Position numbers and translations under genes: made by a program. Of a stretch of DNA of 64,000 nt, positions 34,357-38,757 are shown one piece after another (the stretch's first letter is position 1; the number at the start of each line of letters is the position of its first letter). The stretch comes from Methanogenium sp. S4BF. Its GTDB lineage: Archaea > Halobacteriota > Methanomicrobia > Methanomicrobiales > Methanomicrobiaceae. Where the stretch lies: positions 1,423,940 through 1,487,939 of the forward strand of contig NZ_CP091277.1 in the NCBI RefSeq assembly GCF_029633965.1. The letters are read 5' to 3'. The notes beneath the pieces are model-generated. The model had not been told where the DNA came from. It worked only from the letters and a program-made list of their open reading frames with translations, and searched no databases.

Positions 34357-34824
34357 TCATCTGCTCAATTCTTCACCATCACCGGAAGGCCCCTCTTCAG
34401 AAAGCTTCTTTATCAGCGCATGAACCATGTCCATGTCCCCCAATGCAAAGGCGGTGCGGATTTCTGTCACATCGATGCCCTGTTCTTCAATAGTGGCAAT
34501 ATGTCCTGCAATCTGATCTTCACGCTTTACCTCTCCAATCCGGTCCCGGCCGCATTCAGCTCCTTCTGACCGTATCTCATGGTCTTCATCGGTACTGACA
34601 GGTCCCTTATCACGAAGTTCTGCCGGCTGCGCATGAACCGTGTCCATGTCACCTGACTCAAAGGCGACGCGGATTTCTGTTACATCAATGCCCTGCTCTT
34701 CAAGAAGAGCAGGACTGTCCACCATCTGCCGGCCGGGGTCCGCACTCACAGGGAAGATGACAAGTGCAAAGAGACAGAGAGTCACTGCAAAACCCGCCAG
34801 CAGTATCTTTGAATGGGTTATCAT
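34357..34824 (-). CDS. Small secreted protein with repeated TEIR-GDMD units
   Basis: 155 residues. The signal peptide (about 1-28, ending PVSA) is closely similar to that of the Cys-rich protein at 35317. Two near-identical units, each LEEQGIDVTEIR or IEEQGIDVTEIR, then AF, two residues, GDMD and VHA, sit at about 41-70 and 112-140. A charged linker contains a single Cys. The predicted mature protein is acidic. Its promoter carries the palindromic operator shared with the 35317 gene and the FHA-regulator operon. No enzyme motif; function unknown, probably external. Confidence 0.75.
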   Translation of the reverse strand: MITHSKILLAGFAVTLCLFALVIFPVSADPGRQMVDSPALLEEQGIDVTEIRVAFESGDMDTVHAQPAELRDKGPVSTDEDHEIRSEGAECGRDRIGEVKREDQIAGHIATIEEQGIDVTEIRTAFALGDMDMVHALIKKLSEEGPSGDGEELSR

Positions 34825-35316
34825 ATGGATTCATTTCCTTTTTTTCATTGCCGGGTGCTCAAGGGGCCGGGCATATATCTCCGGAACCCCGGTCCCTGAA
34901 TATAGATCCCCCTGTTCAGGGATAAATGAACAAAATAGCCGTGATTTCATAGCAGAACCGGACGGTTGTATCCTGCAAATCCGAAAGAATACCTCCCACT
35001 GGTGAATCGGGAGAGATGCCTGAAGGCAAACCACTATCTGCAAATATATCAGCCATCCGTTTTCAGACGGATTATCTGTGTCAGGACTGAACACGTGTCA
35101 AAAAAGGAACGGAAGAGTTTCCCCGATTATGGATGGCGGGGCTGATTCTCATACCAAACCATTTCTGGCGGTCAGGGAATACCCATTTTGTGGTGGATAG
35201 TATGGTTCGTTTGTGATAGGTGCAGTATATGCATCAGGTACTTTCACAAGGCATTTCCGGGAAGAAAAGGGAGAATCACTCCCCCGATCTGCGGACACAC
35301 CCTAATTTTGAATCGG
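34825..35316. other. Intergenic region with shared-operator promoter
   Basis: 492 bases between two secreted-protein genes. The promoter and operator near 34922-34967 are described separately. The rest (about 35000-35316) shows no gene; an 87-residue minus-strand frame (34831-35094) overlaps the promoter and is not credited. Several short A-rich tracts are present. Confidence 0.5.
34922..34967 (-). promoter_or_regulatory. Operator-TATA promoter of the 34357 gene
   Basis: On the minus strand AACC-GTCC-GGTT forms the palindrome (34956-34967). Exactly 28 nt after TCCGGTTC comes TTTATC (TATA element, 34921-34926). The block from TCCGGTTCTGC through TTTTGTTCATTTAT is nearly identical to that before the 35317 gene. 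Confidence 0.7.
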
Positions 35317-35778
35317 TCACTCAGATGAAGCCATGCCTGAGGATTCGGCTCCGGACCCATAACCCGGTCCGAACCCATTTGTAAAGCAGTTCAGGATTCC
35401 ATTCTGCATGCACGCACCACGCAGTTCTCCCAGCATGGCACCAATCGTTTCCATGTCACCCGATGCAAGGGCGGCACGGATTTCGGTCATCCCAATGCCC
35501 CCCGCATCCGGCATGGCAGTCCGCCCACCCATAATCCGGTCACATGTCTGGTTACAGGTCTGGTTACAGGTCTGATCACAGGTCTGGGTGCAGGTCTGGT
35601 CGCGCGTCTTATCGCAGTCACCGGCACACATCCCTGTGCTTTCTGCAGCAGAACCATTGCCTGCGCCATTGCCGGCACCTTTGCCCATCCCGGATGCACT
35701 CACCGGAGAGATGATGAATGCACAGAGGCAGAGACCCACGACAAGGCCTGCCAATAGTGTCTTTGAACGTATTTTCAT
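35317..35778 (-). CDS. Small secreted Cys-rich protein with C-x3-C array
   Basis: 153 residues from ATG 35778; the frame is open further upstream but crosses the promoter, and a GTGATC ribosome site precedes this ATG. Signal peptide about 1-29 (ending PVSAS). A Gly/Asn-rich stretch follows, then Cys51, 55, 63, 67, 71, 75 and 79 in C-x3-C spacing, encoded by 12-base tandem repeats (35541-35612). A single MTEIR, AALASGDMET unit at about 97-115 matches the neighbour at 34357. Two more Cys lie near 123 and 131. It could bind metal or form disulfides outside the cell. Shares the operator with the kinase operon. Confidence 0.75.
   Translation of the reverse strand: MKIRSKTLLAGLVVGLCLCAFIISPVSASGMGKGAGNGAGNGSAAESTGMCAGDCDKTRDQTCTQTCDQTCNQTCNQTCDRIMGGRTAMPDAGGIGMTEIRAALASGDMETIGAMLGELRGACMQNGILNCFTNGFGPGYGSGAESSGMASSE
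35541..35612. repeat. 12-bp tandem repeat inside the Cys-rich protein gene
   Basis: About six units of the form TACAGGTCTGGT on the plus strand, the central ones nearly perfect. In frame they encode QTC preceded by Asp, Asn or Thr, so slippage would change the number of C-x3-C units without a frameshift. Confidence 0.8.
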
Positions 35779-35870
35779 TTTGATCACTTCCATTTCAATA
35801 TCTGACAGGTGCAGGACAGACAGCCTCAGGCGCCCCCCGCTCCCTGAACATACATCCCTTCTGCTCAGGT

Positions 35871-35922
35871 ATAAATGAACAAAATAGGAACACTCCCACC
35901 GCAGAACCGGATAGTTCCATAC
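35871..35922 (-). promoter_or_regulatory. Operator-TATA promoter of the 35317 gene
   Basis: The minus strand reads GTATGGAAC-TATCC-GGTTC (imperfect palindrome, 35904-35922). The TATA element TTTATA starts exactly 28 nt after TCCGGTTC. Roughly 80 bases here align with the promoter of the 34357 gene. Confidence 0.72.
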
Positions 35923-35977
35923 ATGCAGCCATGCCGTTTCAAAAAAAAAATAGAGAGAAGACGAGCCGGGACAGAAC

Positions 35978-37504
35978 TCAGGCATCCGCCGGATATGCCG
36001 TCCCTGCCGCATCCAGTGCCTTCAGCAGTTCATCTGCCGACGGAAAACGGTCAGCGGGATTCTTCTCCAGGCACCGCAGAATAAGTGCATCCAGCGGCTT
36101 CAGGGACGGATTATGGGAAGAGGGAGGCTGCGGTTTATGCTCCAGGATGGCAGCCGTCATCTCGCCCACACCGGTTTCGGAGAACGGGCGGACACCGGTC
36201 ACACATTCATAGAATACCACACCCACCCCGTAGATGTCGGTCCGTTTATCCGGCGACCCGAACCGGGTAGGGGCAATCTGCTCCGGGGCCGCGTAGTTCA
36301 GTGAGAAACCAGGGGGAGTTGTTTCATGCCCTTCGGTGAGCACGGTCCCCAGCCCCCAGTCGGTAATCTTCGCCATTCCCTCAGCGGTGATAAGAATATT
36401 CTGCGGTTTGATGTCCCGGTGGATGATGCCGTTTGCATGCGCATACGCGATGCCCTCCGTAATGCCGCGGATAACAGCCACTGCCTCTGCAGGGTCCAGC
36501 GGGAGGGGGCGGGCGGCAAGCGATCCCGGCAGATACTCCATCTCGACAAAGGGAACCGGCAGGATGTTCACCGAGAAGAGGGTCACAATATTCGTGTGGG
36601 AGAGATGTTCCCAGATGCGCATCTCTTTTAAAAACATCTTCCCGGTCACCTCATCAAAACTGATCGGAACTTTCACCGCCACTTCCTCTCCGTCACAACG
36701 CCGTTTTGCACTGAAAACCCGTGCAATACCTCCTTTGCCGATAAACCTGACATTCTGGTAGCGTTCGTTGAGCGGCAACGGGAAATACGTTGAGCCCGGT
36801 GAGCTGTTCATCACGGCTGCTTCATCGGAAAAGGACCGGGAAGACCACGACGATGTCACGGCAACAGTCTCATCAGCTGATCCGGCCGCCCCTTCATTCC
36901 GGGGGCCATCCGCCATCTGCCGTTTCCCTGCAATAAGCCGGTACAGCAATGCACCACCGGCAGCTGCAAGAATGCCGACAACAACGAACAGCAGCACCGG
37001 GTCGACCCCGTACCGGTTCAGATACTGAATCAGACCGGCCCCTTCATTCGCACGGGATGACCCCTGAGGTGCCTGAGTCATCTGTGCAGGCCCACCGTCC
37101 TCCCGAACGGTCAGGTTCGTCTGATTTGTCTGGACGGCCCGGGTTGTTTCAGCCGGCGGGAACAGAACAGGCAGGGACCCCTGCACATCGTCTGTGTCAT
37201 ACGGCAGAACCTCCGTAGCATTACCGGAAAGAAGGCCGCGCCGCATTGCATCCATCGGACCCGCATCAGATGTCCGGTTGTTTGAACCCGGCGTCATACG
37301 GTGGGTTGCCTCAGGCTGAAGCACCACTTCCCCGGTCTGTGCGGAGCTGATCGCCGTCAGATTTTCCCCGGCATCATATCCCCGCCCATCAGGCGCCTCA
37401 CCCATCGCAGCAGCACCGGCACCCGTGCAGAGTGCGGCGGCAAGTATGCCGGCACAGAGCAGCATGAACCAGAACCGGAAACTACCCCTCTCAGACAGTA
37501 TCAA
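35978..37504 (-). CDS. Membrane Ser/Thr protein kinase (PknB-like, Hanks type)
   Basis: 508 residues. N-terminal signal or membrane helix (about 10-33), an external region of about 135 residues with several N-x-S/T sites, and a second helix at about 169-192. The kinase domain spans about 248-498: glycine loop GKGGIARV, Lys278 in VAVKV, Glu294, HRDIKPQN at 362-369, the metal motif as DWG (382-384) instead of DFG, and APE at 406-408. All catalytic residues are present, so it should be active, with the kinase inside and a sensor outside. Its start overlaps the stop of the HTH-FHA gene, so both come from one transcript. The FHA domain is its likely partner. Confidence 0.92.
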   Translation of the reverse strand: MILSERGSFRFWFMLLCAGILAAALCTGAGAAAMGEAPDGRGYDAGENLTAISSAQTGEVVLQPEATHRMTPGSNNRTSDAGPMDAMRRGLLSGNATEVLPYDTDDVQGSLPVLFPPAETTRAVQTNQTNLTVREDGGPAQMTQAPQGSSRANEGAGLIQYLNRYGVDPVLLFVVVGILAAAGGALLYRLIAGKRQMADGPRNEGAAGSADETVAVTSSWSSRSFSDEAAVMNSSPGSTYFPLPLNERYQNVRFIGKGGIARVFSAKRRCDGEEVAVKVPISFDEVTGKMFLKEMRIWEHLSHTNIVTLFSVNILPVPFVEMEYLPGSLAARPLPLDPAEAVAVIRGITEGIAYAHANGIIHRDIKPQNILITAEGMAKITDWGLGTVLTEGHETTPPGFSLNYAAPEQIAPTRFGSPDKRTDIYGVGVVFYECVTGVRPFSETGVGEMTAAILEHKPQPPSSHNPSLKPLDALILRCLEKNPADRFPSADELLKALDAAGTAYPADA

Positions 37505-38361
37505 TTCTCAGTTACCTCTCCACCTGATGCATCCCCCTGAATGAAGAGAAACCGTGCCCCCTTCATGCCCCGTGCCAGTTCAAGTACATCCCCGTCTTTC
37601 AGCGGATGCGCTGCACCCGGATGAACCTGCAGATCATTGATATATGAACCGCTGGTGCTTCTGCAGTCCTCATACGTCCACCCGGATTCACCTTTCCTGA
37701 TGACCCCGTGGGGCCTGGAGACACGGGTTACTGCCTCATAACGCCGGGAAAGAACAATCTCTGCATCCGGGCGGGCAGGCGAGGCAGGAATATACCGGGC
37801 AGGGGCATCCGGCCCGTCTGCAGGTGCAACCCCGCTGCCCGACGCATCGGCCCTGCCGATATGCACTCTCACATCAGTAAGGGGAAAGACAACCGCCTCA
37901 TCGGTCTCTTCCGGCATCACGAGGACCGGGGAGTCACCCGCATACTCAGCGGCCACCATCCGGCGCGTCTCCTCCGCCTTCTCAGCAAAGGCGCCGCCGG
38001 TGATTCTCACATCAATGTTGCTGAAGAAGCCAAGGTTTCTGATGACTGATTCCATCCCGCCTGAGACCAGCGAATATTTCCAGACCGGAAGGGCACCTTT
38101 GGACGTACACCGCCCGATGCCTGCCTTTTTCTGTACCACACCGGTATTCAGGAGTTTGACCATGTGCTTTTTCGTATTTTCATAGCTTGTCCGGATATGA
38201 CCGGCAATCTCCCTGAGTTCCATCGGCCCTGCTTCCAGCACCTTCAGAATCTTCAGTCGCGTGGGATTTGAGAGCGCATTCAGGTATTCAGACAGGTCAG
38301 CATAGTATTCCGGATCATCTGCCGCCACCACCGTCTCGTTCATCGGATCGTTGTTCTGCAT
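37501..38361 (-). CDS. ArsR-like winged-helix / FHA-domain transcription regulator
   Basis: 286 residues. A winged-helix domain at about 21-80 (LSNPTRLKILKVLEAGPMELREIA) resembles ArsR-type regulators. A middle region (about 85-160) is followed by an FHA domain at about 160-275 with GR in HIGR, S-x-x-H in SRPHG and N in STSGSYIND, the phosphothreonine-binding residues. It would bind a phosphorylated Thr, most simply on the kinase encoded next. A good ribosome site (GAGGTGA) precedes the ATG and overlaps the end of a 20-codon ORF. The operon promoter carries a perfect 10-bp inverted repeat also found before two secreted-protein genes, which this protein may bind. Confidence 0.9.
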   Translation of the reverse strand: MQNNDPMNETVVAADDPEYYADLSEYLNALSNPTRLKILKVLEAGPMELREIAGHIRTSYENTKKHMVKLLNTGVVQKKAGIGRCTSKGALPVWKYSLVSGGMESVIRNLGFFSNIDVRITGGAFAEKAEETRRMVAAEYAGDSPVLVMPEETDEAVVFPLTDVRVHIGRADASGSGVAPADGPDAPARYIPASPARPDAEIVLSRRYEAVTRVSRPHGVIRKGESGWTYEDCRSTSGSYINDLQVHPGAAHPLKDGDVLELARGMKGARFLFIQGDASGGEVTEN

Positions 38362-38365
38362 TCCG

Positions 38366-38428
38366 TCACCTCACTTCCCGGACTCTGTCATATACCTGTA
38401 TACCAGCACCTGTAACAATATCCATCAT
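38366..38428 (-). CDS. Possible 20-residue leader peptide before the HTH-FHA gene
   Basis: ATG 38428 is preceded at 5 bases by GGAGGT, a strong ribosome site. The frame encodes MMDIVTGAGIQVYDRVREVR, and its TGA lies inside the ribosome site of the regulator. Translation could be coupled or regulatory. Too short for family comparison; real expression is uncertain. Confidence 0.4.
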   Translation of the reverse strand: MMDIVTGAGIQVYDRVREVR

Positions 38429-38704
38429 TGATACCTCCAGTATACGGTCTTCCCGGGTGCCCTGCCGCCTCCCGTGCACCCGGCATCTGACCCTGATATA
38501 CAGGACAAAAACACCGTGTCAGGCGCCAATTCAGCACCGGCCCCGTTTCCGGATAGGAATACGACCGGGATTCATCCGTCGTTTTTCGCCTGCATGTACC
38601 AGACACAGCAGGCACATTCAGAGACACAGGCGATATCCCCGACATCTCCTCCATGACTACCGCTATAGGAAGATGCAGATGAGAAGAAGTACGGCAGGAC
38701 GGCC
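38429..38704. other. Long leader of the HTH-FHA/kinase operon
   Basis: From the expected start near 38682 to the regulator ATG is about 320 bases. An 88-residue minus-strand frame (38388-38654) lies in it but has atypical codon use and overlaps the 20-codon ORF in another frame. It may simply be untranslated. Confidence 0.4.
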
Positions 38705-38757
38705 AATAAAACTATACAGCGGGAACAGTTCTGGTATGGAACCGGATGGTTCCATAC
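38705..38757 (-). promoter_or_regulatory. Operator-TATA promoter of the HTH-FHA/kinase operon
   Basis: Perfect inverted repeat GTATGGAACC / GGTTCCATAC around a 4-base centre (38734-38757). On the minus strand TCCGGTTC is followed exactly 28 nt later by TTTATT (38705-38710), the same geometry as before the two secreted-protein genes. Confidence 0.72.

Follow-up and report, generated by a model that had tools for sequence, protein, structure and literature searches.

Does the four-gene locus in Methanogenium constitute a phosphothreonine signalling circuit, and is it peculiar to this place? The locus lies in a 64,000-nucleotide stretch (the window) of a 2.51-Mb genome assembled as a single contig, and consists of a gene for a helix-turn-helix (HTH) regulator with an FHA domain, a gene for a membrane Ser/Thr kinase and two genes for small secreted proteins, sec2 and sec1. 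It is likely to belong to a phosphothreonine signalling module present in many copies throughout the order, in which the signal would pass from kinase to FHA docking, to phosphorylation of the regulator tail, to a palindrome ahead of secreted and surface genes. The preliminary description had proposed such a system, and as a proposal it is supported, but not as a single locus, being one of three in the host genome and one of many in the order Methanomicrobiales.

The regulator-kinase pair in the window and across the order

Open reading frame positions confirm that the four genes lie together on the minus strand as first described, and the regulator stop and kinase start overlap in the sequence TTGA, which agrees with the single operon ascribed to them. 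The coding features are:

37501..38361, minus strand: HTH-FHA regulator, 286 aa (Pfam HTH_5 and FHA, AlphaFold2 (AF2) model, conserved residues)
38332..38334, minus strand: codon for Thr10 in the N-terminal tail (ETVVAADD), proposed phospho-acceptor (conservation, disorder)
35978..37504, minus strand: membrane Hanks-type Ser/Thr kinase, 508 aa (Pfam Pkinase, catalytic residues)
36866..36868, minus strand: codon for juxtamembrane Thr213 (DETVAV), proposed FHA docking site (kinase alignment)
35317..35778, minus strand: sec2, small secreted protein, ATG at 35778 (signal-peptide-like start, repeats)
34357..34824, minus strand: sec1, small secreted protein (signal-peptide-like start, two repeats)

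Nearly every full-length HTH-FHA regulator examined in Methanomicrobiales is encoded directly upstream of a Hanks-type membrane kinase. The regulator profile has a match in 106 of 150 Methanomicrobiales genomes, representing 30 of 35 genera. Among the matches listed for a phylum-wide sample, full-length ones came only from this order; in genomes outside it the HTH part alone was matched, and the FHA part rarely. Essentially all of 60 loci compared have a kinase gene 3′ of the regulator gene and in the same orientation, and the two adjoin in 70 of 80 named loci. Most of the exceptions end at the end of a contig, one has an inverted kinase gene, and one has a PP2C phosphatase gene and a second regulator gene in between. 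Regulator and kinase-domain trees for 57 pairs correlate with r = 0.68, whereas swapping kinases among paralogs of the same genome in 500 trials gave a mean r of 0.33 and a maximum of 0.56. The observed value is above all within-genome swaps, as would be expected of cognate partners.

The regulator matches HTH_5 (3.3e-5) and FHA (1e-9) in Pfam, with no Trans_reg_C and no BTAD, and is made up of a disordered N-terminal tail containing Thr10, a winged helix (residues ~17-98) and an FHA domain (~146-274). The AF2 monomer shows the winged helix, a linker helix and the FHA domain; residues 1-15 are disordered and the tail (predicted local distance difference test score, pLDDT, ~36) is not placed. 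The phospho-Thr-binding residues of the FHA domain (G169, R170, S215, H218 and N242, forming the GR, SRxH and N motifs) are conserved in the homologs. Thr10 is shared by 59 of 60 homologs and by every sequence of a 48-member alignment (A4); V, I or L stands at +1, usually a hydrophobic residue at +3 and usually an acidic one at +6, and residues 1-9 are not conserved. The HTH domain had been called ArsR-like and does resemble ArsR proteins, but falls far under the cut-off for the ArsR/SmtB metalloregulators (NF033788, 35.3 bits against a curated 55).

The kinase has an N-terminal transmembrane segment, about 140 residues outside, a second transmembrane segment and a complete cytoplasmic Hanks kinase domain (Pfam Pkinase, 1.3e-43). 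K278, E294, D364, N369 and D382 are intact and are essentially invariant among 121 paired kinases; the presence of the Lys, Glu, HRD Asp, Asn and DxG Asp predicts an active enzyme. A juxtamembrane Thr is found in 98 of the 121 aligned kinases, and a T-hydrophobic-hydrophobic motif in 75 of the 121 juxtamembrane segments, compared with 21 in shuffles. In the window, ETV occurs both in the regulator tail (NETVVAADD) and in the juxtamembrane segment (DETVAVTSS). The outside domains of paired kinases vary, with NosD/beta-helix in several, PEGA in one and others without assignment (L109, L077, L118, L236), and the cues sensed therefore probably differ.

The host genome encodes three FHA domains, each within an HTH-FHA protein. 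Type A is the window locus, type B consists of PP2C phosphatase, HTH-FHA regulator and kinase (L064), and type C of HTH-FHA regulator and kinase (L065). In the type-B loci of Methanomicrobiaceae the operon includes a PP2C gene, and in some other loci such a gene stands beside the pair. Four host proteins pass the Pkinase cut-off, of which three are the HTH-FHA partners. The fourth Hanks-type kinase, at G000:C1:1753842-1754474 (L290), is without an FHA regulator.

Co-occurrence of the genes in relatives was thus upheld for the regulator-kinase pair, and for the palindrome, which recurs order-wide, but the four-gene set is patchy: the type-A cassette of regulator, kinase and secreted protein was found in 3 of 7 Methanogenium genomes sampled. 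In the third of these (G131), the regulator and kinase frames are broken by frameshifts (L076:5559-7923) and are either pseudogenes or assembly errors, the assembly being 59% complete. The promoter elements of G131 are intact despite the split frames.

Promoter elements and the genes they precede

Genome-wide statements about promoters are based on pattern searches of the genome, which gave the following features in the window:

38706..38751, minus strand: regulator promoter element AACCATCCGGTT, 29 nt, TTTAT (conserved in G107 and G131)
38734-38757, minus strand: whole regulator palindrome GTATGGAACC-N4-GGTTCCATAC
35871..35916, minus strand: sec2 promoter element AACTATCCGGTT, 29 nt, TTTAT (conserved in G107 and G131)
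34922..34967, minus strand: sec1 promoter element AACCGTCCGGTT, 29 nt, TTTAT (conserved in G107)

All three promoters have AACY-N4-GGTT, then exactly 29 nt, then a TATA-like TTTAT. The sequence AACYRTCCGGTTC has exactly three perfect matches in the genome, these same promoters, and the likeness between them therefore exceeds chance. The common architecture originally noted for the three transcription units is borne out by this and by conservation of the sites in relatives. AACYN4GGTT-N29-TTTAT has six perfect genome matches, namely the window promoters and those of three repeat-protein genes near the type-B operon. A refined pattern, AACYN4RGTT-N19-ATT-N7-TWTAT, is matched perfectly at seven places in the genome and with a single mismatch at none; matches with two mismatches are about as many as for a reversed control. 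The seven are ahead of sec1, sec2, a type-C secreted protein gene and four type-B transcription units, one of which encodes a CARDB surface protein, with an ABC transporter after it, and the other three repeat proteins. The genes concerned all come shortly after the three HTH-FHA-linked kinases, and six of the seven encode secreted or surface proteins. The window regulator promoter has the palindrome and TTTAT and is without the ATT element; its TATA-like box is ~345 nt ahead of the regulator ATG. The patterns were derived from some of the same sites and their existence is not independent evidence; the lack of near-misses, and what other genomes show, do not depend on how the patterns were written.

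The type-B locus (L236:4824-10364, G000:C1 ~1.240-1.245 Mb) includes the CARDB surface protein, an ABC-type ATPase, an FtsX-like permease and the three repeat proteins, with four copies of the element. The type-C layout is the same with a TATATAT box, ahead of a secreted-protein gene 3′ of the kinase, and is present in the host (G000), G075 and G049. In the host it occupies L065:7765-8708 (G000:C1 ~2.2158 Mb), with conserved counterparts in L067 and L216. It is less likely that the window motif belongs to a single regulator, as its core is common to the loci of three paralogs and the flanks differ (GGAACC versus TGCAACC).

Conservation of the promoter motif in related Methanomicrobiales, which the preliminary description had made a check on its proposal, was found: the motif recurs beside HTH-FHA regulators across the order. 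Methanogenium marinum (G107) keeps the palindrome ahead of its regulator gene and of its counterparts of sec2 and sec1; the copies at the regulator gene and the sec2 counterpart have base changes. In G131 it is kept ahead of the regulator and secreted genes. The simple pattern gave 100 listed matches in the 150 genomes and 13 for the reversed control. Among the 100 matches listed, 43 are within 10 kb of an HTH-FHA gene, against 1.2% expected (binomial 2e-54, which is overstated since the genomes are related). Around the regulators, 50 of 343 AACY-N4-RGTT sites are followed at 29 nt by the start of TTTAT, compared with 0-3 at most other distances; minor peaks occur at 21, 28 and 50 nt, and the peak at 50 (29 + 21) points to tandem palindromes. 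An alignment of the sites brings out another half-site, AAYC, 21 nt past the first and an ATTT element ahead of the TATA-like box. Far from listed regulators, G037 and G060 contain clustered AACCCGGGGGTTAAATGAAATAATCC...ATTTTCTTCATTTAT elements that have a longer sequence in common (e.g. G037:C1:14393 and 14723; L279); these may be a larger regulon without linkage to a regulator gene, or a family of repeats.

Genes 3′ of the element encode small secreted proteins or lipoproteins of several families. These are repeat proteins in Methanomicrobiaceae, Cys-rich CDATCDQTR proteins resembling the window sec2 in a second family, and, in Methanoregula-type genomes, MDTGKILIGFAF-type proteins encoded divergently from the regulator. 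In the Methanoregula-type loci (L106:5335, L109:6313, L113:6491) the element is between the regulator gene and the small secreted gene that runs away from it, and another AACC half-site often follows at 21 nt.

The earlier view of sec1 and sec2 as paralogous secreted proteins was substantiated, as both have a signal-peptide-like start and a common ~33-residue repeat, EEQGIDVTEIRxAFxSGDMxxVxAL. Sec1 contains two such repeats (EEQGIDVTEIRxAFxxGDM), and Sec2 contains Cys/Gln-rich CDQTCNQTC repeats and one GIxxTEIRxAxxSGD repeat. No Pfam or NCBIfam family was assigned to either. ALF, KfrA_N and Ank were rejected as families for related repeat proteins, the matches being weak, with no stretch passing alone, or below cut-off. 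An AF2 model of Sec1 built from four sequences is poor (pLDDT 53.5). One guess is that the Sec proteins might bind the outside domain of the kinase as feedback.

The proposed circuit and its alternatives

The membrane kinase, with its variable outside domain, would sense a cue and autophosphorylate, probably on the juxtamembrane Thr, on which the regulator FHA domain would dock. The kinase would then phosphorylate the near-invariant Thr of the regulator tail, and the phosphorylated tail would bind the FHA domain of the same or the partner subunit, rearranging a winged-helix dimer on AACC-N4-GGTT. Binding would most likely activate the adjacent secreted and surface genes and, in the window locus, the regulator-kinase operon itself, because the TATA-like box follows the site at a constant distance of 29 nt. 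Binding of the regulator to DNA, its phosphorylation, the order of docking, activation over repression and the cue are predicted parts of this circuit, which as a whole is supported by the gene pairing, the co-variation of the partners, the promoter code and its placement, the conserved Thr, and the intact catalytic and FHA residues.

Several observations weigh against this circuit. Over a third of the kinases are without the juxtamembrane Thr motif, and the type-B and type-C regulator operons of the host are without the element in their own promoters. Among the 100 order-wide matches listed, 57 are not near a listed regulator, and most Methanoculleus-type (f4) regulators are without an element by the simple pattern, though they may use a variant of it. 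Sec1-like genes with the element are kept in G079 (L243:2791-3273) and G075 (L244:2678-3337), and no window-type regulator was found in either; the element there is therefore read by another paralog, or is orphaned. These retained elements and the bare type-B and type-C operons would also suit a different transcription factor reading the palindrome, with the HTH-FHA/kinase pair merely linked and acting elsewhere. Such a factor is quite improbable, given that every perfect match in the host genome is within the three HTH-FHA/kinase loci and that elements recur beside different regulator paralogs in distant families. Within the host's family, the simple pattern is matched in 20 of the 22 genomes in which the regulator profile is also matched, and is unmatched in 4 of the 6 in which it is not. 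Chance neighbourhood of an ordinary ArsR-like regulator and an unrelated kinase, with promoter likeness left over from duplication of sec1 and sec2, is scarcely credible. Promoters of paralogs could share ancestry, but the regulator promoter is not paralogous and has the same core and spacing, and the order-wide pairing and promoter code (70 of 80 loci, regulator proximity, the 29-nt peak and tree co-variation) contradict it.

The sign of control could be the opposite, the unphosphorylated regulator repressing on the palindrome until phosphorylation and FHA closure remove it. Many ArsR-type proteins repress, the second half-site (AAYC, 21 nt downstream) nears the ATTT element and the TATA-like box, and the window regulator has the palindrome in its own promoter, as an autorepressor would. 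Repression is nonetheless somewhat unlikely: the main palindrome, at its fixed 29 nt, is upstream of the B recognition element (BRE)/TATA region, the usual position for archaeal activators such as EarA and Ptr2 (PMC5512572). It is also possible, though decidedly unlikely, that the kinase phosphorylates the HTH domain directly, the FHA domain only tethering the regulator to the kinase and the N-terminal Thr being no switch. In a surrogate host, PknH/PknB phosphorylate several EmbR threonines that are not part of a tail motif (PMC9239209), but Thr10 is near-invariant while the residues before it vary, and the hydrophobic residue usual at +3 is like that of the DgcB tail (PMC6733907).

Relation to known phospho-signalling systems

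The closest functional parallel to the proposed circuit, built on a different HTH, is EmbR/PknH of Mycobacterium tuberculosis, in which a winged-helix protein with a C-terminal FHA domain is encoded upstream of a membrane Hanks kinase in one operon. The methanogen pair corresponds in the order of its genes, which in the window overlap at TTGA, and in the C-terminal FHA domain with its phospho-Thr-binding residues. EmbR has an OmpR/PhoB-type DNA-binding domain and BTAD, whereas the archaeal protein has an ArsR-like HTH and no BTAD. In EmbR the FHA domain is required for phosphorylation by PknH (PMC9239209). The methanogen system differs further in its near-invariant Thr in the N-terminal tail, its single operator code and its candidate regulon of secreted-protein genes linked in cis.

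The FHA structures of EmbR, GarA, OdhI and DgcB are among the matches of the regulator family profile and of the AF2 model, with EmbR structure 2ff4 among the top Foldseek matches of the model. Actinobacterial GarA and OdhI have a phosphorylatable N-tail Thr, and autophosphorylation sites on the kinase recruit them (PMC8546545); the FHA domain of Bdellovibrio DgcB binds its own phosphorylated tail (PMC6733907). The regulator, like them, is an FHA protein with a Thr in its own disordered N-terminal tail, there a conserved one; the Thr tail and the kinase Thr motif together suggest, by analogy, FHA docking and a tail switch of this kind. The outputs differ, being enzyme binding or a GGDEF domain rather than DNA binding, and operon pairing with a kinase is not described for these proteins in PMC8546545 or PMC6733907. 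ArnA of Sulfolobales, also an archaeal FHA protein, belongs to a network of Hanks kinases with effects on transcription; it has a Zn-ribbon and no HTH, showed no DNA binding by itself in S. islandicus, and has the vWA protein ArnB as its partner (PMC4858521, PMC10470591). An ArnA-type N-terminal Zn-ribbon is not present in the regulator according to Pfam and the AF2 model, and the HTH occupies its place. Two-component systems likewise encode a membrane sensor kinase and its DNA-binding phospho-reader in a single operon, their sensors being modular and their targets nearby, but use a His-Asp phosphorelay and a receiver domain where the methanogens have Ser/Thr chemistry, a Hanks kinase and FHA.

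No description of an archaeal HTH-FHA regulator was found in open-licence full-text literature, and within those texts the kinase/HTH-FHA pair appears to be a previously undescribed archaeal counterpart of bacterial sensor-regulator pairs. The chances are about even that phosphothreonine response regulators of a separate class arose within Methanomicrobiales, as HTH-FHA proteins with a self-docking phospho-tail, nearly always inherited with a cognate kinase, and having a common AACC-N4-GGTT operator and adjacent secreted or surface targets. Archaeal FHA signalling in the literature found is mainly that of Sulfolobales, where kinases, FHA readers and promoters were linked one by one. In this methanogen order, kinase, reader, often phosphatase, operator and targets seem to be side by side, and the host species has a genome-wide candidate target list of about eight promoters. 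With the components adjacent and the targets few, a complete archaeal phospho-signalling pathway should therefore be testable with few proteins and oligonucleotides, and the methanogen module would be a second, differently built example of EmbR/PknH logic.

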